In this document: positions 26,030 to 39,210 of the stretch, in pieces
Layout of the letters: each line of letters begins with the position of its first letter
Numbering within the stretch: the stretch's first letter is position 1
DNA from: Chloroflexota bacterium
GTDB taxonomy: Bacteria; Chloroflexota; Anaerolineae; B4-G1; DUEL01
Direction of reading: 5' to 3'
NCBI GenBank assembly: GCA_014874475.1
Contig: JADBJJ010000027.1
Span: 1-64,000, forward strand
DNA length: 64,000 bases
Translations under genes and position numbers: made by a program
Notes under the pieces: generated by a model
What the model was told of the DNA's origin: nothing
Databases searched by the model: none
The model's input: only the letters and a program-made list of their open reading frames with translations

Positions 26030-26911
26030 ATGTCTGTCACAGAGACTTGCACTGAGGGGCCTTCTATGACCGGTCATCTCACATCTCCACTCACCACCCC
26101 CATGATCTACGATTCGGCCCGCCGCCCGCCGTCCTGGTGGGAGGAAATGGTAGAGGCCTGGCGCTATCGCGACCTGATCGTTCAGTTGGTCTCTCGGGAT
26201 ATCAAATCCCGCTACAAGCGTTCGGTGCTGGGCGTGGCCTGGACGATGCTGAACCCCCTGATGATGATGATCGTCCTCAGCCTGGTTTTTTCCCACCTTT
26301 TCCGGGTTACCCTTCCTCACTATCCGGTGTACGTGCTCTCGGCCCTGGTGCTGTGGAACTTTTTTGCCCAGAGCACTACAGCGGCGATGAATCAACTGGT
26401 TTGGGGTGGGGCGCTCCTCAACCGAATCTACCTCCCCCGGACCATCTTCGCCCTCTCGGCTCTCGGTACCGGCCTGGTGAACCTGGTCCTTGCGCTGGTC
26501 CCGCTGGCCCTCATTATGGCGCTGACCGGCGTTCCATTCCGACCGGCTCTGATCTGGCTGCCGGTGCCGGTCCTGCTGACGGCTATGTTTGCCCTTGGCC
26601 TGGGATTGGCCCTCTCCACCCTCGCCATCTCATTCCCCGACGTGGTGGATATGTACCAGGTTGCGCTGATGGCCTGGTACTTTTTGACCCCCATTCTCTA
26701 TCCGGCAGAAATTCTGCCCGAGACGTGGCGCTGGGTGCTCAATCTGAACCCAATGCACCATCTGGTAGAGGTCTTCAGAGCACCGATACACGCGGGATGG
26801 ATGGCGGGCCCCAACACTCATCTGGGCGCTATTGTGGCCGCGGTGGGGATGCTGGTAATCGGATGGATCCTCTTCACTTCTCGGGCCGACGAAATTGCTT
26901 ACCGGATATGA
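26030..26911 (+). CDS. Polysaccharide ABC exporter permease (Wzm/TagG type)
   Basis: A 293-residue ABC-2 family permease with a cytoplasmic N-terminus and six hydrophobic segments from about residue 70. Family motifs are LVSRDIKSRYKRSVLGVAW (about 49-67), just before TM1, and the YLTP-like WYFLTPILYPAEILP near 220. Such proteins, with a Wzt partner, export completed lipid-linked polysaccharide. The Wzt-like ATPase gene begins 3 bases downstream. Later in-frame ATGs at 26066 and 26102 are alternative starts. Confidence 0.9.
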   Translation: MSVTETCTEGPSMTGHLTSPLTTPMIYDSARRPPSWWEEMVEAWRYRDLIVQLVSRDIKSRYKRSVLGVAWTMLNPLMMMIVLSLVFSHLFRVTLPHYPVYVLSALVLWNFFAQSTTAAMNQLVWGGALLNRIYLPRTIFALSALGTGLVNLVLALVPLALIMALTGVPFRPALIWLPVPVLLTAMFALGLGLALSTLAISFPDVVDMYQVALMAWYFLTPILYPAEILPETWRWVLNLNPMHHLVEVFRAPIHAGWMAGPNTHLGAIVAAVGMLVIGWILFTSRADEIAYRI

Positions 26912-26914
26912 GGA

Positions 26915-27709
26915 GTGGGAAATTTGGAAACCACGGTGATGGTCGGCCTGGCCGTAGTCGCAACTGTATCGGAACCTGAAGTTGTCATCCGTCTGGAAAA
27001 CGTCTCGGTGCGCTACCGCGTGCCGACGGAGCCGGTGGGTTCTTTCAAAGAGTATATGATCCGCCGCCTTCAGCGACGGGTCAACCACCGCGACCTTTGG
27101 GCTCTGCGGGGAGTCACTCTAAGCGTCCGCAAAGGGGAAATTTTCGGCATCATTGGCCGCAACGGGGCCGGCAAGAGCACTCTGTTGAAATCAATCGCCC
27201 GGGTGCTGCGACCGACCGAGGGACGGGTGTGGGTGAAAGGGCGGGTGGCACCCCTTTTGGAGATCGGCGCCGGCTTCCACCCTGAACTGACCGGGCGGGA
27301 GAACGTCTATCTCAATGCCACCATGCTGGGCCACTCGCGGCGGGAGATTGAGGCCCGTTTCTGGGAAATTGTAGAGTTTGCCGAACTGGGGGATTTCATT
27401 GACGCTCCCCTGCGGACCTATTCCACGGGGATGATGGCACGGCTGGGCTTTGCCGTCGCCACGGCGTGGGAGCCGGAGATTCTGATTGTGGATGAAATCC
27501 TGGCGGTGGGAGATGAAGCATTCCGCCGCAAGTGCCAGGCCCGGATGGAGCAATTCCGACAGAATGGCGCCACCGTGCTTCTGGTCTCTCACAACCTGGC
27601 CCAGGTACAGGCGATATGCGAACGGGCTGCCTGGCTGGATCGCGGGGAGGTTCGGGCCTTGGGGCCGGCGGCGGATGTGGTGAGGCGGTATCAGCAGGCG
27701 AATGTTTGA
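26915..27709 (+). CDS. Polysaccharide ABC exporter ATPase (Wzt/TagH type, short form)
   Basis: A 264-residue ABC ATPase: Walker A GRNGAGKST near 82-90, the Wzt-type VAPLLEIGAGFHPELTGREN segment, signature YSTGMMARL near 170, Walker B ILIVDE and the switch His in LLVSHN. It lacks the C-terminal carbohydrate-binding domain of O9a-type Wzt, so export is probably not gated by a terminal sugar cap. The frame opens with GTG 26915; TTG 26924 is better spaced from AGGAG (26910-26914). Confidence 0.92.
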   Translation: MGNLETTVMVGLAVVATVSEPEVVIRLENVSVRYRVPTEPVGSFKEYMIRRLQRRVNHRDLWALRGVTLSVRKGEIFGIIGRNGAGKSTLLKSIARVLRPTEGRVWVKGRVAPLLEIGAGFHPELTGRENVYLNATMLGHSRREIEARFWEIVEFAELGDFIDAPLRTYSTGMMARLGFAVATAWEPEILIVDEILAVGDEAFRRKCQARMEQFRQNGATVLLVSHNLAQVQAICERAAWLDRGEVRALGPAADVVRRYQQANV

Positions 27710-27732: not shown

Positions 27733-28547
<815 letters not shown>

Positions 28548-28690: not shown

Positions 28691-30052
28691 ATGAGGAGGA
28701 GGATGATCTTCCACGAAAATATGGAGCTATCTAGAGCCGAATGTGAGTTTGAGCCAGGTTCAGCTGTAGATCCAGTGGGGCGCATCTTCAGGTATCAGGG
28801 ACGCATCTTGCGCGGTATATTCCCACCTTATGTGGACAGCACACTACAAGTGCTTTCATTAGCAGAGAAAAACCGATGGTTTGAATTAGGACTGATCCAC
28901 ACGTGGAGAACAAATTACACAATGCCTGAGTTCCCTTTGATTCTTGAACACAAGCGAGTACCTTTCGTGACCTTGAGAGCCGAGTGGCCAGCAGAAGCTC
29001 TAAGAGAAGCGGCACTATGCTATCTAAGGGTGGCAACTGCCTTGGCCGATGCTGGCCTCTGTCTAAAAGATGCCCATACTTGGAACGTGCTTTTTGATGC
29101 CACAAAGCCTTATGTCATTGATTGGGGTTCCATCCGACCAATTTCTGAGTTAAACTGGGACTTCTGGTATTCTGAGTTTCGCAAGTACTTTCTTGTCCCA
29201 CTAGTCTTGTTTTCACTAGGACAAGCCAAACTGGCCCGATCTCTGCTCCGTGAACATATTGTGGGTGTGGGCAATTACCTCTTAGAATTACCCTGGACCC
29301 AGGTCTTTCCAGAACAACCATACCTCATTTGGCAGAATAGAGGCCGCTCTTCGCCGCGGCAGGTGTTTGAGAGCCTAGCAGACTATGTGGCTAGCTTGTC
29401 TATGCCGCGATTTGAAGGAGAGTGGGTCCAATATGAGCAGCCTCGCCTTAACAGCTTAGCAGAGCTTGATAAGGCTCGTCCCAAAGATCGCATTGTTCAC
29501 GATTTGATCACTGTTGACCCGCGCTCAACAGTTATAGATATCGGGTGCAATTGGGGGTTGCATAGCGAAATCTGCGCTCGTTTGGGCAAGCAGGTAGTTG
29601 CAGTGGATATTGAAGAAACCTGTGTGAATGAGTTGTTTTGCCAGACGCGGCGTTCGAGACTGAATATCTTGGTGTTATATATGGATTTTCTCTGGCCTAT
29701 GGGAGAGTCAGGAATCGTGAACAGTATACCTTCGGCGCCAGACCGATTGGCGTGTGACACCGCTTTAGCTATGGCCCTAGTGCACCATTTGGTTTTTAAG
29801 CGACACGTTAGCTTTGAAGCCATTGCGTATGGTATAAGTAGATTTACAAAACGCAGGGCGATTGTTGAATTCGTCCCAGCGGACGATTATCATGTCTCCT
29901 TGTGGTCACCGGAAAGGATACCTTGGTACAAGCTCGAAAATTTTGTCACGGCTATGAAGCGTTATTTCAAGAATTACACAATCCTTTCTTCGGATCCAGC
30001 ACCGCGGAAGATCATAGTGTTTGAGGGAAAGAAATCACAGGGTGACACTTGA
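28691..30052 (+). CDS. NoeA-like protein: kinase-like N-terminal half plus methyltransferase
   Basis: A 453-residue two-part protein. The N-terminal half (about 20-230) has FEPGSAVDPVGRIFRYQGRILR, typical of NoeA-family proteins, and a loop DAHTWN...VIDWG (about 126-144) that resembles the HxDxxxxN/IDWG catalytic loops of aminoglycoside- and choline-kinase folds. The C-terminal half is a class I methyltransferase (VIDIGCNWG near 282). The substrate is unknown; the glycan locus suggests sugar or lipid modification. ATG 28703 has GAGGAGGAGG right before it and may be the real start. Codons are visibly AT-richer than in the genes to the left. Confidence 0.72.
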   Translation: MRRRMIFHENMELSRAECEFEPGSAVDPVGRIFRYQGRILRGIFPPYVDSTLQVLSLAEKNRWFELGLIHTWRTNYTMPEFPLILEHKRVPFVTLRAEWPAEALREAALCYLRVATALADAGLCLKDAHTWNVLFDATKPYVIDWGSIRPISELNWDFWYSEFRKYFLVPLVLFSLGQAKLARSLLREHIVGVGNYLLELPWTQVFPEQPYLIWQNRGRSSPRQVFESLADYVASLSMPRFEGEWVQYEQPRLNSLAELDKARPKDRIVHDLITVDPRSTVIDIGCNWGLHSEICARLGKQVVAVDIEETCVNELFCQTRRSRLNILVLYMDFLWPMGESGIVNSIPSAPDRLACDTALAMALVHHLVFKRHVSFEAIAYGISRFTKRRAIVEFVPADDYHVSLWSPERIPWYKLENFVTAMKRYFKNYTILSSDPAPRKIIVFEGKKSQGDT

Positions 30053-30078
30053 GGCCTGGCGTCCTAAATTAGTGAACG

Positions 30079-30921
30079 GTGAAAACGCTAATGAAGCAGA
30101 GACTTCTGTTTTTGGAAGAAGTTCTGACTGGCTACGATGCAGTTAGCCAGCTTTACTCTTACATTCCGCCAATGTGTATCTGGCGAGCGTGGGAATATGC
30201 TGCTTACCAACGATACAGCCTACCTGAGCCTGTGCTGGACATCGGTTGCGGCGACGGGCGCTTTTTCCGTCTGGTATGGCCCCAGATAAATGCTGCGGTT
30301 GGGGTGGACATAGATCCTGGCGTATGCGATGCCGCGCGAGGCTCTGGCGTGTACCAAGAAGTGTATGCGGTGCCGGCTCATCAGTTGCCGGTGCACCTTG
30401 AGAATTTCGCCTCCGCTTTCGCTAATTGTTCTTTAGAGCATATGGATCACCTGTCAGAGGTCCTGAGTAGCATTTATCGCGCTTTACGTCCCGCGGGGCA
30501 GTTTCTGCTGAGTGTGGTGACAGATAAATTTCTCAAATGGGCTACATTGCCTGGGTTAATAGATCGAGCAGGCGTCCCTGAACGCGCAGAGGCTCTACAA
30601 GCGGAGTACGTGGCTTATCATCATCTGGTCAATCCACTCCCTACCGAGGCTTCGGTTCAGTCTCTGGAAGACGCAGGCTTTGATGTGCTTGAGCACGTTC
30701 CAATCATGCCAGAAATGACCAGCCGACTCTTTCTTTTTTTGGATCATTTGTGGCATATTCAGCAGCCGGGCGGCGAATTGGGTGAAGTGTTGTACAAATA
30801 CTTAACGACTTTGCCCCAGTTCCAGGTGGCTTTCCGCCAGGTCCTGGCCGGTGTGTTGCAAATGGAACGTGATTGGTCTAATGGCAGTGGAGCAATCTTC
30901 TGGGCGCGGAGGAAGGAATGA
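30079..30921 (+). CDS. Class I SAM-dependent methyltransferase
   Basis: A 280-residue Methyltransf_11-type enzyme: VLDIGCGDGRFF near residue 53, FANCSLEHMDH near 117, LRPAGQFLLSV near 138. Overall architecture resembles the methyltransferase at 6585-7406, although the DNA is AT-richer. It begins with GTG 30079, or possibly ATG 30091. The stop overlaps the next start (ATGA). Probably methylates a sugar or intermediate of the surface glycan. Confidence 0.82.
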   Translation: MKTLMKQRLLFLEEVLTGYDAVSQLYSYIPPMCIWRAWEYAAYQRYSLPEPVLDIGCGDGRFFRLVWPQINAAVGVDIDPGVCDAARGSGVYQEVYAVPAHQLPVHLENFASAFANCSLEHMDHLSEVLSSIYRALRPAGQFLLSVVTDKFLKWATLPGLIDRAGVPERAEALQAEYVAYHHLVNPLPTEASVQSLEDAGFDVLEHVPIMPEMTSRLFLFLDHLWHIQQPGGELGEVLYKYLTTLPQFQVAFRQVLAGVLQMERDWSNGSGAIFWARRKE

Positions 30922-33900
30922 GCCGGATCGGGTGCTGGTGTGGAAATACGAATCTGCTTCCCTTTTCTCAGGGGTACCTTCGGTGCCCTTCATGTGAGAC
31001 TTTAGTTTTTGAACAGACGCCGTCTGAGATCTCACGCGTGATAGATGATGAAGATGATTTTTATGGCCGCCACTATTGGTTCTCTCACCAAGAACAGTTA
31101 GGGTATCCTGATATTATTGTGCGTTCACGAACGGACCTTCCCGAACGTTGCTTATATTGGCTTCGAACATTATTAAAATACAAACTGCCCCCGGCGAAGG
31201 TGTTGGAACTTGGAAGTGGCCATGGAGGATTCGTGGCTATGTTGCGCTGGGCAGGCTTTGATGCCACCGGTCTGGAACTCAGCTCATCAATTGTAGACTT
31301 GGCCCGCCAGACCTTCAAAGTGCCAATGCTGCTGGGACCTATTGAGGATCAACGTCTCAAACTACGGTCATTGGATGTCATTGTTTTGATGGATGTACTG
31401 GAGCATTTGCCCGACCCAACAGGTACAATGCGGCACTGTATGGACTTGCTCAAACCTGATGGCATCTTGGTTATTCAGACCCCTTGTTATCCAGAGGGAA
31501 AATCCTATGAGGAAATGACAACCGACAGGGACCGCTTTTTGGAACAATTGAAAGCCAATGAGCATCTCTATCTCTTCAGTCGTAATTCCATCCGGAGGTT
31601 TTTTCAACACATAGGGGCTAATCATCTGGCATTTGAACCTGCAATCTTTGCCCATTATGACATGTTCCTGATCGCAAGCCGGATTCCTATCGCAACTTTC
31701 CCGGCGGCGGAGATTGAGCAGGCACTATGTCGTACCCCCAGTGGACGGATAGTGCAGGCTCTGCTGGATCTGGATGACCAATACCGCGCATTGAAGGAGC
31801 AATTTGCCGAGTCTGAGGCTGATCGGGCAGCGCGCTTAGAAAATATGCGCCGTCTGGAACGACTGCTGGCTGAAGCAGAGCGTGATCGGGCCGCGCGCCT
31901 GGGCGTCATTGAAGCGCAGGGGGCGGAGATTGCCCACCTGCAGGGAGAGGTGCACCGCTGGCTGGAAGAGAATCAGAAACTATGGGCCCGGGTTGGGGAG
32001 TTGGAGGCACAGCGGAACGAATGGCAGGCCCGCTGGGAGGAGCTGCGGCAGCAATTTGAAGCCGTGGAGACCGACCGGGCGGCGCGGCTGGTGGTGATTG
32101 AGGCGCAGGGGGCGGAGATTGCCCGCCTGCAGGGAGAGCGCAACATCCTACAAGAGCAGCTGAATATAGCGCAATGCGCAGTACAGGGGCTTCGGGCCAG
32201 CCGCGCCTACAGACTCCTGCGCAGAGCAGGGCGATGGAAATGGTTAGAGCAAATGCTGAACCGAGCATTTCCCGTCTTCCCGCAGATTGATGCGACTCAA
32301 CAGCGGAACGGGAAGCAAAGGCCTCCTGGTAAAAGGGTGCGCGTGGCAGTTGATCTCACCCCTATGCTGCCAGGCGGAGAAAACGGCGGCGCCAAACTGG
32401 TATCTGTAGAGTTAATTAGACATCTCAGCCGGGCTGCTCCCAATTGGGATTTTGTCCTTTTAACGTCTGATAAAGCCTATGAGGAATTGGCTTCTTTAGA
32501 GAGTACTAACGTGCGGCGTTTTCGTGTTACCGACCATAGAAATCTCTTGCGTCCAAAACTTCTGAGGGTAAGGAATAAATTATGGGAAAAGCTTGCCATT
32601 ATCTTGCCATATCCCGCCTTGACGAAACTTAAATCAATCTATCGGCTAGTATCTCACCAACCTCGACGAAGCGGGTTGCTTCGGCAAGTCGGCGCAGACT
32701 TGCTTTTTTGTCCTTTCACTGCTCCGTTCTTTTACGAGCCGCACGTACCCGTGGTTTCCATCGTGCATGATCTCCAATACGTCTATTATCCTCAATTCTT
32801 TAACGCAGATGAGCGCTATTACCGAGATAAACATTTCAAAGAGGCTTGCAAGTTGGCTGACAAACTCGTTTGCGTTTCAGAATATGTTCGCAAGTCTGTG
32901 CTGGAGAATAGCGATATAAGCCCGGACAGAGTAGTCACAATCCATACGCGTTTATTTTGCCGGCTGGAAAAACCTTCGCCCGACAAAGTTGTCCAGGTAT
33001 TAGATCGCCTGGGGCTTAAGGCTGGCCGGTTTCTTCTCTATCCGTCTAACTTCTGGCCGCACAAGAATCATTGTATGCTTCTGACGGCTTTTGGTATGTA
33101 TAAGGCTTGTCACCCTGAATCCGATCTAAAGCTGGTATGTACGGGTGCACCCAGCGCACGGATGGAATATTTACGCGATGCAACTGAACGTATGGGCCTT
33201 ATAAAATGGGTTGTATTTCCGGGCTATGTGCCAAATGATGAGTTTGCGACTTTGATGGCTTCTTGCCTGGCGCTTATCTTTCCCTCACTTTATGAAGGAT
33301 TTGGAATGCCGGTTCTGGAAGCAATGGCCTTTGGTAAACCAGTGCTATGTAGTAATGTGACCAGCCTGCCAGAAGTTGCTGGCAATGCTGCGCTCCTCTT
33401 TGACCCTAGAAGGCCTGCGGAGATTGTAAGCGCTATTGAGCGCATAGAAAATGATCCGCAATTGGTTATGCAATTGGTAGAACGTGGGTATGAGCATTTA
33501 AGCACTTTTGGTGGCCTGGAGGAAATGATTCGGGAATATCTACAAATATTCCACGATGCTTTGAAGAGGGGCCGTTCTTTCACAAATGCGCTGCAAGGAT
33601 TGTATCCAGATGGGTGGACAGGCAATCGGCTCATTGTTACCTGCAGCGCAGACTCGGGCCTACGTCATCTGGAAATGGTGTTGCACGTCCCTCCATATCA
33701 TCCACATCGTGGCGTCCTTGTGAGTACGGTTATAGGGGAAAGGGTCTTCGGAACTCAGGAAATCAGACAGGGACAAACAGTGTTGATCCAGCAACCGTTG
33801 CCACCCAACGGCGGATTTGTTGAGTTTTTGATTGAACCGACCTTTCAGCCCAAAGCATATGGGATGAACGACGATGAGCGTGAGTTAGGATGCCTCTGCT

Positions 33901-33974
33901 ATGATTGCAAAATAGTCTCTGGTAACAAAGTGATCTCCCTGCGGGAAGGAGGACACGATGTCGCTGATCGTTAG
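30918..33974 (+). CDS. Methyltransferase - coiled coil - GT4 glycosyltransferase fusion
   Basis: A 1018-residue multidomain protein. Residues 1-30 form a likely zinc ribbon (C6, C8, C23, C26). A class I methyltransferase follows ([10 protein letters not shown] near 95, [11 protein letters not shown] near 157). A coiled coil spans about 285-420 and contains two copies of [22 protein letters not shown]. A GT-B (GT4) glycosyltransferase spans about 470-855, with HKNH near 718 and [17 protein letters not shown] near 793. A beta-rich tail closes the protein (about 880-1018). Such architecture resembles chain-length or capping enzymes (WbdD-like: modifying domain plus coiled-coil ruler), which is inference. 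The coiled-coil DNA is much GC-richer than its surroundings. Confidence 0.85.
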
Positions 33975-34854
33975 CGTGATTACGCCCTCCTATAATCAAG
34001 GCCGCTTTATTGAACGCACCATTCAAAGTGTGCTTTCCCAGGACGTTCAAGGTCTTGAGTATGTTGTCTTTGACGGGGGGAGCACAGATAACACGGTTGA
34101 AATTCTTAGACGATACGACGCGCACTTACGATGGGTCTCAGAGAGGGATAGAGGTCAGGCTCACGCAGTTAACAAAGGCTTGAAGGCTACTTCTGGTGAA
34201 GTGATCGGCTGGTTAAACTCAGATGATATCTATTACCCAGGCGCAGTGAAGGTCGTATGTGAATATTTTGAGGCCAATCCAGATGTAGATGTAGTATATG
34301 GAGATGCTTATCACATTGATGAACAGGATAATATCATTGAGCCTTATTATACTGAGCCCTGGAACTTTGACCGGTTAAAAGAGGTGTGCTACCTGTGTCA
34401 GCCAGCGGTCTTTTTTCGACGCAGAGTGGTTGATCGCTTCGGGTTTTTAGATGAACGGTTACATTATTGTCTGGATTATGAGTACTGGCTACGGCTGGCA
34501 ATTGGAGGAGCAAGGTTCGCATATTTGCAACAGGTTCTGGCTGGTTCTCGGCTTTATGCTGAGACCAAGACCTTAGGTGCACGGATAAAAGTGCATCGGG
34601 AGATCAATGATATGATGCGTGAGCGATTAGGGCAAGTTCCTGACCGCTGGCTATTTAACTACGCCCATGCTGTTTTGGATGTAAAGGGTTTCCGTCGCGA
34701 AGCCCGCTTGCGTTTTGCTGTAGCCGTATCGATGCTCTCTCTGTACACCGCACTGCGGTGGAATAAGAGAATATCCCGGAGTATGCTCAAGACGACTGCC
34801 CGCTGGATCGGCGGTAATGCCCAAGCTGTGCTGAAAGGAGTGCTCGCAAGATGA
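33958..34854 (+). CDS. GT2 family glycosyltransferase
   Basis: A 298-residue GT-A enzyme with the N-terminal [21 protein letters not shown] motif, DGGSTDNT, and WLNSDD (the DxD-equivalent metal site near residue 87). [10 protein letters not shown] marks the acceptor region near 175. It closely resembles the GT2 at 40318-41250 along its whole length. The start overlaps the previous gene by 17 bases. It lacks membrane segments, so it acts at the cytoplasmic membrane face. Confidence 0.9.
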
Positions 34855-36755
34855 GAATAGGGTTTGATATTAGCCAGACCGGACGGCTGAAAGCAGGATG
34901 CGGCTATTTTGCATACAGCCTGATCCAAGCCCTGGCAGAAGTTGACTCCGAAAATGAATATATCCTTTATCCTACGTTCGGCGATGCCTTTTGGGATCCC
35001 GACTGGCCTACCACTACCTGTCAGATTGACAAACCTAATTTCCGGCGAGGATTGGGCCACAGAACGTTTGAATCGGTGAGGCTTTTTTGGGGCAATCCAC
35101 CAGCCGATTTTGAAACGCAACTTGGTGATCCGGATATCATCCATTCTAACAACTTTTTCTGTCCTACACAGTTGAAGAAGGCCCGCTTAGTCTATACACT
35201 TCATGACCTTGCGTTCATAGAGCATCCCGAATTAACCACAGAGCAAAATCGCATAAATTGTTTCACCAGTGCTTTTAACGCCAGTCTTTATGCGGACGCG
35301 ATCATCGCTGTCTCAGAGTATACACGTTGCAACTTTCTTGAGATTTTTCCCCACTATCCGGCCGACCGTGTGGTTGTTGCATACGAAGCCTCCCGTTTCT
35401 CCGGCGGATCAAAAATCATCAGGCCTATCGGTCTTCCGCCACTTGAGCCTGAGCGTTTTTGGCTAACTGTGGGCACTGTGGAACCTCGCAAGAATCATAA
35501 ACGCTTGCTCTATGCTTACGCCAAACTGAAGGCGCACCTTGGGCAGACATTTCCCTTAGTCCTGGCAGGTGGTAGGGGATGGTTGATGGACGATTTTGAG
35601 AAGGTGATAGACGATCTGGGTCTGAGGCAGGATGTGCTCCTGTTGGGCTATGTGGAAGACGAAGTCCTTCAGTGGCTCTATCAGAACTGTTTCGCGTTTA
35701 TATACCCCTCACTGTTTGAGGGCTTTGGTCTCCCAGTGATAGAAGCGATGAGCCAGGGAGCGCCGGTGATTGTCTCAAACACCACCTCGCTACCGGAAAT
35801 AGTTGACTCTGCAGGACTACTGGTGAACCCGCTTCAGGAAGACGAGATTTTCCAGGCTATGCTAAAGTTGTCTACGGGTGAGGTCAGTCGCGAGGTTCTG
35901 AAAGATATGGCGATAAGGCGGGCTGCTGCCTTTTCATGGACATCCACCGCCAGAGTGGTGTTGGAAGTGTATAGGGGGGTGGCTTCGCGCAGAAACTCAC
36001 TTCCAGTAGAGAGCGTTACCCCGCTTTTGCAAGATGTGTACCAAGTGTGGGATCACCTGGGGCGAGTTGATCCCTTGTGGGCAGTGTTGACCCATCCCGA
36101 GAAAAAGGGGGGGAAATGGGATCTTGAAGAGTTCTTTGAAACAGGGAAGAGAGATGTTCGCAATTTACTACAATATCTGCACTCGTTGGGAGTGTATCTG
36201 GATTTTGGCAAGGCTTTGGATTTCGGTTGCGGAGTAGGCCGGCTGACGCAAGCACTGGCTGAGCATTTTCAGGAAGTCCATGGGGTGGATATTGCGCCTT
36301 CTATGGTGGAAACAGCCAAAAGCCTGGATAGGTCTGAGGGTAAATGCTTTTTCTATCTGAATCTCGCTGAGAACTTACGCTGTTTCCCGGACAACACGTT
36401 TGACTTTGTCATTACCCTGATCACGCTACAACACATTCCCAAACCATGCGCACTGAGATATATTGCGGAATTTGCGAGGGTTGTTAAGCCGGGTGGGATA
36501 GTTGTTTTTCAGATCCCTGATTCTTTTAAAGGAGCGTCACCACCCACGCAGCCGTCATCGGCAGTCGCACTCGCGACTCACAGTAGCGACAAACGCGAGC
36601 CGCAGATGTTAATGTCCAGCGTGCCATACGCCGAAGTGGTTCAAACTCTGGCCGAGAACAGGATGAGGTTGATAGACGTAGTTGAGGACAATTGTGCAGG
36701 TCCGGAATGGCTTTCTTACAGATACTGTGCCATGAAACTCTGGCCCTCTTCTTGA
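34851..36755 (+). CDS. GT4 glycosyltransferase - methyltransferase fusion
   Basis: A 634-residue bifunctional protein. An N-terminal GT-B GT4 domain (about 1-380) has [27 protein letters not shown] near 206 and [20 protein letters not shown] near 290. A class I methyltransferase follows (about 430-634; [19 protein letters not shown] near 455, [10 protein letters not shown] near 524). Domain order is opposite to the fusion at 30918-33974. It probably adds a sugar and methylates it or the chain. Starts with ATGA overlap. Confidence 0.88.
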
Positions 36756-37045
36756 GCAGAGATTGGCTGCGCTGGACCTCTGGACGGGGCGAGATGCGCG
36801 TCCAGGTCCAGGATGATGCTGAGGCTCTGTTACACGGAGAACTCTACTCAATCCGATGCCCGAATACTGTGGACGTGATCGTCAATAGCCGGAGGATCAT
36901 GTCGCTGGATGTGAACCAGGAGGGCTTTGCTCCTTTCGGGCCGATTCGGTTGAACTTGTGCCAGGGCGAGAACGCGATTGAGGTGATCAGCCATAACCCG
37001 CGACCACCACACCAGCAGATAATAGACCACTGGCAGTGGCGGTGA
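36752..37045 (+). pseudogene. Orphan copy of a C-terminal WRWT/SHNP beta domain
   Basis: The reading frame across 36752-37045 matches the C-terminal domain of the next gene (37138-39210): RDWLRWTSGRGEM against QDWWRWTDGRGLL, PNTVDVIVN against PNRVDVLLG, GPIRLNLCQGENAIEVISHNP against GPLTLPLKTGENTIEFVSHNP. Similarity begins exactly at the stop of the GT4-methyltransferase gene. The frame can only start inside that gene, out of phase, so it has no credible start of its own. It is most likely a leftover from a duplication or deletion. Confidence 0.65.
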
Positions 37046-37099
37046 GGAACCTATTCGTTGAAATTACTTGATTGGACTTTGGACAAAAAGAGGCCTATC

Positions 37100-37133
37100 C
37101 CGGCGGTTAGCCGGCTCATTAAGGAGGTCTCCT
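37100..37133 (+). promoter_or_regulatory. Hairpin plus sequestered ribosome-binding site before the GT-C gene
   Basis: CCGGC(37100-37104)-GGTTA-GCCGG(37110-37114) forms a hairpin. It is followed by a strong AAGGAGGT (37121-37128), itself inside the small dyad AGGA...TCCT (37122-37133). ATG is at 37138. The structure could tune translation of the membrane enzyme; function is inferred. Confidence 0.4.
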
Positions 37134-37137
37134 GCCG

Positions 37138-39210
37138 ATGGATCATAGTGAGAATGTTGGCAAGTACAAGGCAATAGCATACGTACTTATAATAGTTTTA
37201 ACTACTCTGATTATGATGCCCCGTTGGGCATTCTCAGAATTTGGCTTGCTGGATGACGGCGTAACTCTTGACCTCGCTCCCCATATTCTGGAAAAGCTTT
37301 CTGTTGGCAATATAGGTTATTTGCTGCAGTTAGAGACCTATAGAGGCAGATTTCGTCCCTTCTATTGGCTGTATTACTCCATCCAGTATCCTCTATGGGG
37401 CAGGACTCCATTTGGTTATTTCGTAGTGCAGTGGTTGAATTTAATGTTCACAGGGATAGCAGTTTATGCCCTTGTTGAAATGGCCTCACGAAACACAGTT
37501 GCGGGACTGGCAAGTGGCGTGCTATATGTACTATCTCCCGTAGTTGTGGAGAATTATTTCACCTTATCCAAACCGGAACCAGTGCTTGTCTTATCGCTTG
37601 TTCTATCGATCCTCCTGATGTTTAAGGCCGCTGAAGCGCAATCTAATTTTACAAAGAACGCATTCTTTTGTGGGGCGGCTCTGTTTCTTGCTCTTGGCTA
37701 CTTGACCAAAGAGACAGCTATATCAATGACCTTGATCAGCGGTCTATGGTTCATCGGTATCGCACTCCGAAAGCAAGCGTCTGAAAATTCAATTCTCTAC
37801 CCAATGGTCAAGCGTTGTTTCCTGGTTAATGTGATCTATATCATTATCGTTATCTTAGCAAGGACTGTGCTGGAGATAGCCCCAGTTGCGAAGGGAGAGT
37901 ATTCGCAATACTACATTTTTACGCCGGACAACCTTTCCCGTTCTCTCTTGAAACATCTCGGATGGCATCTGCGGGATTTCGGTTATCTCTTTATCATAAT
38001 GGCCTTCCTCATCAGTTTGAGGATGATTCAAAGGGGACAAATATTACAGCGACAGGAAAAGGTAGTCTTGATAGGAAGTGTCATTTGGATAGCGGGTCAC
38101 ACTTTGATAATGCTTCCCTGGCATTCAACGCTTGAGTACTTTCTGCTTCCGGTCTCTTTGGGAACCGCAGTCTTTGGCGGGATTGGTGTCAGTATTATAT
38201 TAAGATATGCACTGACCAATGGTATTTCTGTGCTTGTGAGATCTTTATCTCGCATAAGCCTGATCAGCGTATTGTTGATTGGCTATATTGCTTTGATAAA
38301 TGGAGGCATCAACGGCTTTGTTCAAATTGCTGTTGATTCAGCCAATGCGGCCCTTATGCGCTATTTGGCATCATCTGTGCCAATAAATGGGGTCATTTTG
38401 GTTAATCTCCCGGAGCCCAATGAGTATGTTCTTGAAATGGGGTTGCACTTGCGAATCATGTATGATAGGCCGGATATTCAAGTGAGATATTTTGGTAGTT
38501 TTGATTTAACCGGTGATGTAGATGCTTTTATTGTCACGCCAGTTATGGTCAACCAGCTTATCCCATCGGTACGCATAGCTGTATATGAGAGCGGGGCAAA
38601 GACATGGGAACGCAACCTTCAGACCTATCCCGTTGAGGCCGTTCATCAAATCATTTTGAGGGTGCAACTCTTGACAATACACCTTGAGCAAGTAATCTGC
38701 CCCGTACTGACATGGTCTGATACCCGAGATCCTTTCTATTGTGAGGTCAAGAGGCCTTTCGTAAATACGCGCGTTTTTGAATTTGGCTGGAAAATCTATC
38801 GGGTAAGAGAGGCAGTGTGCCGGTCCCAGGCTGGGGAAGGTTGGTATGATCTTGAACGCGCAAATCAAGACTGGTGGCGCTGGACGGATGGACGGGGACT
38901 GCTGAAGGTCTTCGTCAACCAGGACACAAGCATCACACTTTCGGGAGAGATCGCTTCCATCCAGCGTCCCAACCGTGTGGATGTTCTGCTTGGTGGCGAG
39001 AAGGTAGCGACATTGAATATGGATGACCAGGAGTGGTGGTTGCCCCTTGGGCCATTGACGCTTCCGCTGAAGACAGGGGAAAACACCATTGAGTTCGTCA
39101 GCCACAACCCGGCTATCACAATTCCCACAGATAGCCGCCCGCTGGCAATCGCTGTTAAGAATTTACATCTTCAAACAGAAGACGGTCAGGTCTGCGAATT
39201 GCAGCCCTGA
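37138..39210 (+). CDS. GT-C-like membrane glycosyltransferase with C-terminal WRWT domain
   Basis: A 690-residue polytopic protein with about eleven hydrophobic segments in the first 410 residues. After TM1 comes an acidic pair in GLLDDG (about 37-42), and a KPEPVL and GYLTKETA pattern follows (about 142 and 188), as in GT39/ArnT-like lipid-linked sugar transferases. The rest is extracytoplasmic and ends in a beta domain (about 570-665) with WWRWTDGRG and ENTIEFVSHNP. A second, orphan copy of that domain lies just upstream. The DNA is among the AT-richest in the window. Confidence 0.72.
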   Translation: MDHSENVGKYKAIAYVLIIVLTTLIMMPRWAFSEFGLLDDGVTLDLAPHILEKLSVGNIGYLLQLETYRGRFRPFYWLYYSIQYPLWGRTPFGYFVVQWLNLMFTGIAVYALVEMASRNTVAGLASGVLYVLSPVVVENYFTLSKPEPVLVLSLVLSILLMFKAAEAQSNFTKNAFFCGAALFLALGYLTKETAISMTLISGLWFIGIALRKQASENSILYPMVKRCFLVNVIYIIIVILARTVLEIAPVAKGEYSQYYIFTPDNLSRSLLKHLGWHLRDFGYLFIIMAFLISLRMIQRGQILQRQEKVVLIGSVIWIAGHTLIMLPWHSTLEYFLLPVSLGTAVFGGIGVSIILRYALTNGISVLVRSLSRISLISVLLIGYIALINGGINGFVQIAVDSANAALMRYLASSVPINGVILVNLPEPNEYVLEMGLHLRIMYDRPDIQVRYFGSFDLTGDVDAFIVTPVMVNQLIPSVRIAVYESGAKTWERNLQTYPVEAVHQIILRVQLLTIHLEQVICPVLTWSDTRDPFYCEVKRPFVNTRVFEFGWKIYRVREAVCRSQAGEGWYDLERANQDWWRWTDGRGLLKVFVNQDTSITLSGEIASIQRPNRVDVLLGGEKVATLNMDDQEWWLPLGPLTLPLKTGENTIEFVSHNPAITIPTDSRPLAIAVKNLHLQTEDGQVCELQP

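Follow-up and report, generated by a model that had tools for sequence, protein, structure and literature searches.

In the Klebsiella pneumoniae O7 wzm/wzt operon, ORF6 carries an N-terminal methyltransferase (MT), a coiled coil and C-terminal glycosyltransferases (GTs) in one polypeptide; it was shown to be a terminator, and the strategy has been called widespread (PMC11231755). In the E. coli O9a pair WbdD/WbdA, a coiled-coil ruler about 20 nm long (PMC5082667) bears the MT at its distal end, with elongation at the membrane end, WbdD itself holding MT and kinase in one chain with no GT, and export being gated by the cap through the carbohydrate-binding domain (CBM) of Wzt. Klebsiella O12 WbbB combines terminator, coiled coil and polymerase GTs within a single chain, the terminator being a Kdo transferase (GT99) and not an MT, and Geobacillus WsaE, encoded beside wzm/wzt, fuses an N-terminal O-methyltransferase to two rhamnosyltransferase domains, a coiled coil being unmentioned in its description (PMC2943079). 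The E. coli O101/Onovel32 wzm/wzt cluster encodes an MT-coiled-coil protein with no GT in the chain, and Onovel32 still exports polysaccharide when that gene is broken, which indicates that its export is not gated by the cap (PMC13168486). Wzt bears a CBM in all terminated examples, and the O1/O2a transporters, which are without one, exported O3a in a recombinant (PMC11231755).

A locus that resembles each of these in part, and differs from each in its domains, lies in a 64,000-nt stretch of DNA (the window) from a Chloroflexota bacterium whose own genome is labelled G000. Coordinates that carry no contig or locus label are positions in the window, and the genes of the locus are as follows.

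26030..26911, + strand: Wzm-type ABC-2 permease (PF01061, E 2e-23)
26915..27709, + strand: Wzt ATPase, 264 aa, without a C-terminal carbohydrate-binding domain (Pfam finds ABC_tran alone, no Wzt_C)
27748..28525, + strand: MNT nucleotidyltransferase / HEPN-like pair, separating the exporter from the biosynthesis genes (NTP_transf_2 / MntA-type matches)
28691..30052, + strand: NoeA-type kinase plus methyltransferase, 453 aa (tblastn, residues 23-424 against annotated NoeA, E 5e-21)
30079..30921, + strand: separate methyltransferase gene, MT2 (PF08241), overlapping the start of the fusion gene
30918..33974, + strand: MT-coiled coil-GT4-beta-sandwich fusion, 1018 aa (ORF, Pfam, AlphaFold2 (AF2) and fold comparison)
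33958..34854, + strand: GT2 glycosyltransferase of the cassette (PF00535, E 3e-28)
34851..36755, + strand: GT4-methyltransferase fusion, 634 aa (Pfam GT4 199-354, 6e-28; MT 456-553, 4e-21)
36756..37137, + strand: eroded 3' portion of an additional gene of the 37138 membrane-protein type (tblastn 46-59% in two frames, E 2e-24)
37138..39210, + strand: membrane protein ending in a beta domain; the low-GC block closes with it (GC 0.46, GC3 0.49)

The first-pass annotation had described two MT/GT fusions in opposite order, one with a coiled-coil spacer, together with a Wzm/Wzt exporter whose Wzt is without a sensor domain. All of this is borne out: both ORFs have exactly the coordinates given and both Pfam domains, the exporter genes lie upstream of both fusions, and the spacer is predicted as a helix (see below). 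Missing catalytic residues in the MT parts had been named as one objection that would undo the proposal; on our reading of the sequence both fusions contain the SAM-binding and GT4 EX7E motifs, so this objection falls. The same annotation had passed over the NoeA-type gene at 28691-30052 and the third MT gene at 30079-30921, and the operon holds four MT domains and one kinase in total.

The 1018-aa fusion can be divided into the following parts.

30918..31727, + strand: Zn-ribbon and SAM-methyltransferase domain, residues 1-270 (PF13489, E 1e-22)
31737..32198, + strand: predicted continuous helix / coiled coil, residues 274-427 (AF2)
32199..32333, + strand: basic amphipathic helices and linker, residues 428-472, a candidate membrane-proximal element (AF2 helices 429-450)
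32334..33578, + strand: GT4 (GT-B) glycosyltransferase domain, residues 473-887 (PF00534, E 6e-28)
33600..33947, + strand: C-terminal beta-sandwich, residues 895-1010 (AF2 strands 899-1007)

The Pfam matches themselves span residues 73-235 (MT, E 1e-22) and 704-859 (GT4, 6e-28), and the MT, with the SAM motif ELGSGHGG, is 49-67% identical to that of nine orthologues. AlphaFold2, run on a 12-row alignment, returned a model with a mean pLDDT of 72.6 in which a single unbroken helix, residues 274-427, leads from the MT domain to the GT-B domain at 474-887; the confidence of the helix is modest (block means of about 47-72), and at 0.15 nm per residue its 154 residues would measure ~23 nm, as against about 20 nm in WbdD. 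The GT4 domain comes directly after the coil and, in a VIA fold comparison covering the GT domain, matches MshA/BshA (Z 33.3 against 3c4q). Residues 427-444 have a muH of 0.52 and a net charge of +5, and the basic helices of 428-472 may lie close to the membrane. Sequence and model thus give the fusion the features of a terminator, with an intact N-terminal MT, an extended coil and a GT at what would be the membrane-proximal end. The Pfam search found no kinase in the 1018 residues, and the combination of MT, kinase and coil in one chain that characterizes WbdD is therefore absent.

The nearest parallel is ORF6, in which MT, coiled coil and GT likewise share one polypeptide encoded in a wzm/wzt operon. 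As described, the ORF6 chain also includes a kinase, a CBM-like domain and two GT2 modules (MT-kinase-CBM-coil-GT2-GT2), whereas the window fusion contains a single GT4 together with a Zn-ribbon and a C-terminal beta-sandwich, and is accompanied by a separate kinase-MT and a Wzt without a CBM. Compared with that description, the window fusion is by its domain set not an ORF6 orthologue. Since MT-coiled coil-GT terminators have already been published, we regard it as a variant and not as a new kind of protein.

On balance we think it probable that the 1018-aa fusion is both the chain-terminating and the chain-elongating enzyme of a Wzm/Wzt-exported polysaccharide, that its rod sets chain length, and that the cassette to which it belongs has been joined to a sensor-less exporter. 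The C-terminal GT4 would add sugars near the membrane onto a lipid-linked chain, and in this way would polymerize it, while the N-terminal MT at the far end of the rod would methylate only chains long enough to make contact; because methylation would be confined to chains that reach the MT, the length of the rod would fix how long the chains become. Phosphate or methyl groups would be added by the NoeA-type kinase-MT and the other MTs. As the exporter has no cap-sensing domain, the obligatory link between capping and export has probably been lost. We more tentatively entertain a narrower form of this proposal, in which a cap-and-ruler terminator works with an ungated exporter, length being fixed either by the rod alone or through contact between terminator and Wzm/Wzt, and rulers being tuned by whole heptad-register units.

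To place the fusion among its relatives, 84,980 species genomes were scanned with 30918-33974 as the query. The scan matched orthologues that have either the MT and coiled coil (MT-CC) or the MT-CC-GT arrangement, in Caballeronia (L032), Desulfocapsaceae (L033), Verrucomicrobia (L034), three Legionella (L035, L037, L038) and two Chlorobiaceae (L036, L039). A class-level search added one Chloroflexota genome (G129), which brings the carriers to 2 of 298 class genomes when that of the window is counted. Searching the genus Legionella yielded no additional MT-CC alleles (2/45), and tblastn against plasmids, with the fusion or with its MT alone, yielded just unrelated GT4s and weak MTs. The MT-CC cassette is sporadic and apparently mobile. 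MT2 immediately precedes MT-CC in L032, L033, L037, G129 and the window, and is 69% identical to the gene in the same position in G129; the orthologous MT and coil with MT2 directly upstream place the window locus within the MT2/MT-CC(-GT4) cassette family. The GT2 at 33958 is 56-60% identical to the neighbouring GT2 in L032, L034, L035, L036 and L039. In L032, L036 and L039 MT-CC and GT4 are distinct ORFs, which makes the fusion optional, and the same freedom between split and fused forms is seen on comparing WbdD/WbdA with WbbB (PMC11231755). The C-terminal beta-sandwich (895-1010), an unnamed domain with a conserved DGW.G motif and no Pfam or PDB match, recurs in L032, L034 and L035.

Among the ten orthologues, the window included, the spacer (measured from the MT to the GT module, or to the C-terminus where the two are split) varies six-fold in length, from 52 to 331 aa; that of the window is 191 aa, and that of G129 is cut by the contig end. 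In the window coil a DRAARL block recurs at residues 302, 323 and 386 (31821, 31884, 32073), at spacings of 21 and 63, or 3 and 9 heptads. When lags of self-match were scored against a null that preserves heptad phase, 8/10 sequences rose above the null, and the best lag of all eight fell on a whole number of heptads: 63 in the window, 56 in L034, 21 in L033, L032 and L036, 28 in L037 and L038, and 42 in G129. L034 has further lags of 165 and 186 that are not multiples of 7 and reflect a four-residue shift. L037 and L038, from two Legionella species, have MT-CC genes that are 88.7% identical in DNA and differ, apart from the start site, by one clean internal gap of 84 bp, or one 28-aa unit of four heptads; an in-register tandem repeat of 28 aa is present in four copies in one gene and five in the other. 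Such variation in heptad steps is what a ruler, or a rod tuned in length, would look like at the level of sequence. As a mere tether could also gain repeats, the length series bears on ruler action indirectly.

The exporter tells a different story from the cassette beside it. GC content of Wzm/Wzt is host-like (0.59-0.61, GC3 0.71-0.74), unlike that of the genes from 28691 to 39207 (GC 0.46-0.52, GC3 0.47-0.54). The window Wzm is 37-39% identical to Chloroflexota Wzms and only 24-28% to cassette-linked ones. Six other loci have a Wzt next to the cassette (L032, L033, L034, L037, L038, G129), and in every case that Wzt bears Wzt_C above the Pfam cut-off. A tree was built from five of these six together with a partial Wzt from the Desulfocapsaceae contig C54, which we assume to belong to one split gene with the L033 Wzt. 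The cassette Wzts form one clade (support 100/99.9) with the window Wzt outside it, and placing the latter with G129, or with G129 and L034, was rejected (p 0.0007 and 0.0013), whereas the MT-domain tree groups the window, G129 and L034 at 100/100. The foreign GC and the discordant phylogeny are most economically explained by a foreign cassette joined to a different, sensor-less exporter, and we suggest that the kinase-MT, MT2, MT-CC-GT4, GT2 and GT4-MT genes were probably acquired horizontally and then joined to Wzm/Wzt. In the tree the window Wzt may branch as a remote sister to the cassette clade (93/94, unstarred), and for this reason an early loss of Wzt_C may have occurred in it. A remnant of Wzt_C behind the short Wzt has no room, with the Wzt stop at 27709 and the next ORF at about 27748. 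Relocation of the CBM into the beta-sandwich of the fusion was also rejected; hhalign could not link the beta-sandwich to Wzt_C (probability 0.3%), and L032 and L034 hold both the beta-sandwich and a CBM-bearing Wzt.

These comparisons leave little of the earlier proposal, in which a novel mode of length control would go with short Wzts, as the architecture has been published (PMC11231755) and the Wzt found next to such fusions is a long one with the sensor in 6/6 loci, the short Wzt of the window being a phylogenetically foreign exception. What is supported is the terminator-type architecture with its intact motifs and coiled-coil spacer, and the missing sensor of the Wzt; the heptad-multiple variation of the spacers is what a ruler would predict. 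The novelty, the link to short Wzts and a role for the GT4-MT fusion are not supported. Having no CBM on its 264-aa Wzt (no Wzt_C), the window system is not classed as cap-gated export, though the fusion probably works like such a terminator. L. maceachernii may be a second case of a terminator cassette with a CBM-less exporter, as it has an MT-CC-GT and a genome without Wzt_C, and its Wzm/Wzt, which lacks a CBM, lies at a distance of roughly 100 kb, apparently on the same contig. Two Chlorobium orthologues have no linked Wzm/Wzt, and their genomes gave no Wzt_C or Wzm match, which indicates that an ABC exporter is not obligatory for the MT-CC family.

The MTs might instead decorate internal sugars of a heavily O-methylated glycan, with the coil serving only to oligomerize or tether the enzyme and length emerging as elongation and export compete, in the manner of Klebsiella O2a. 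We rate this as possible, if rather doubtful. Four MT domains in one operon also fit such decoration, as does a Wzt without a sensor, and the CBM-less O1/O2a transporter exports whatever the chain end, its product length being a balance of export and elongation (PMC11231755, PMC10629545). Counting against the ruler itself are methylation by WsaE in vitro, which is independent of chain length (PMC2943079), the modest confidence of the helix and the two L034 lags outside the heptad register. A pure tether, however, poorly explains the six-fold range of in-register repeats, and decoration leaves unexplained why the cassette elsewhere travels with the clade of CBM-bearing Wzts.

It is unlikely, in our estimate, that the kinase-MT at 28691 is the true terminator, making a methyl-phosphate cap as WbdD does while the fusion MT acts elsewhere in assembly. 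Its combination of kinase and MT is like that of WbdD, its catalytic residues are conserved (R41, K126, D127, N132, D144 and D283, G285, N287, G289 are invariant in five relatives), and it comes first in the cassette both here and in Caballeronia L032; against this, it is a separate gene without a coiled coil, and it was not seen near L033, L034, L037, L038 or G129, all of which keep MT-CC. It is a full-length homologue of the NoeA / Lani_1194 kinase-methyltransferases (about 24% identity), a biochemically uncharacterized family in which NoeA acts on nodulation factors (PMC9758233). As a WbdD homologue it was rejected, since a profile match was obtained to the MT domain of WbdD only (E 0.003) and NoeA fits far better.

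A cap sensor could finally be supplied in trans. A second Wzt of 402 aa with Wzt_C is encoded at about C22:65237-66442 (L046:9238-10443), about 38 kb downstream and just beyond the window, and the only other Wzm found in the genome is unlinked, on C27 (G000:C27:102977-103747, L063). We regard it as quite improbable that this Wzt partners the window Wzm or forms a heterodimer with the short Wzt. In favour, it is the sole Wzt_C protein of the genome, it stands without a Wzm beside it, and its ATPase part shares 54% identity with the short Wzt. Against this, the C27 Wzm is conserved (87-91%) in two sister genomes, of which G101 likewise keeps this Wzm unlinked and encodes a Wzt_C protein on a different contig, and the CBM of the C22 Wzt is only 17-22% identical to cassette CBMs. 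The recurrence of this arrangement in G101 suggests that the C22 Wzt is probably part of an older split pair, and an older, unlinked O-antigen-type ABC transporter is the more likely explanation of the two orphans. An MNT/HEPN or MNT/HepT-type pair stands beside each of the two Wzts of the genome, after the first and before the second (L046:8440-9243); in the window, where we read the HEPN-like ORF as 27998-28525, the pair sits at the joint of exporter and low-GC cassette.

We consider the natural series of spacers in heptad steps and the mismatch of cassette and exporter to be the most useful additions made here. Current models require that a cap-and-ruler terminator be matched by a sensor in the exporter, and the natural pairing of a terminator cassette, probably moved, with a sensor-less exporter makes the two steps separable for study. 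The ruler idea has so far reportedly been tested with engineered coils in WbdD. The orthologues constitute a natural ruler series of 52 to 331 residues with related catalytic domains, including the near-identical L037/L038 pair that differs by one 28-residue unit, and would allow the idea to be tested on natural variation.

The second fusion, GT4-MT at 34851, is a local joining of parts that are separate elsewhere, judging from its two halves: the GT4 half matches free-standing GT4s next to the cassette in L032, L034, L035 and L036 (45-63% identity), and the MT half matches proteins of other Chloroflexota whose frames span 247-334 aa (39-47% identity). It is most simply a decorating enzyme and has no evident part in length control. 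Immediately downstream, the frame-shifted remnant at 36756-37137, just before an intact copy, is by its sequence a scar of recombination or deletion, and the C-terminus of the intact 37138 protein is 39-47% identical to two proteins of G129. Between its CBM-bearing Wzt and MT2, G129 also encodes a 695-aa fusion of a Wzt_C-type CBM and a sulfotransferase (L047:3792-5876, G129:C111), in which a Wzt-type CBM is carried by a modifying enzyme.
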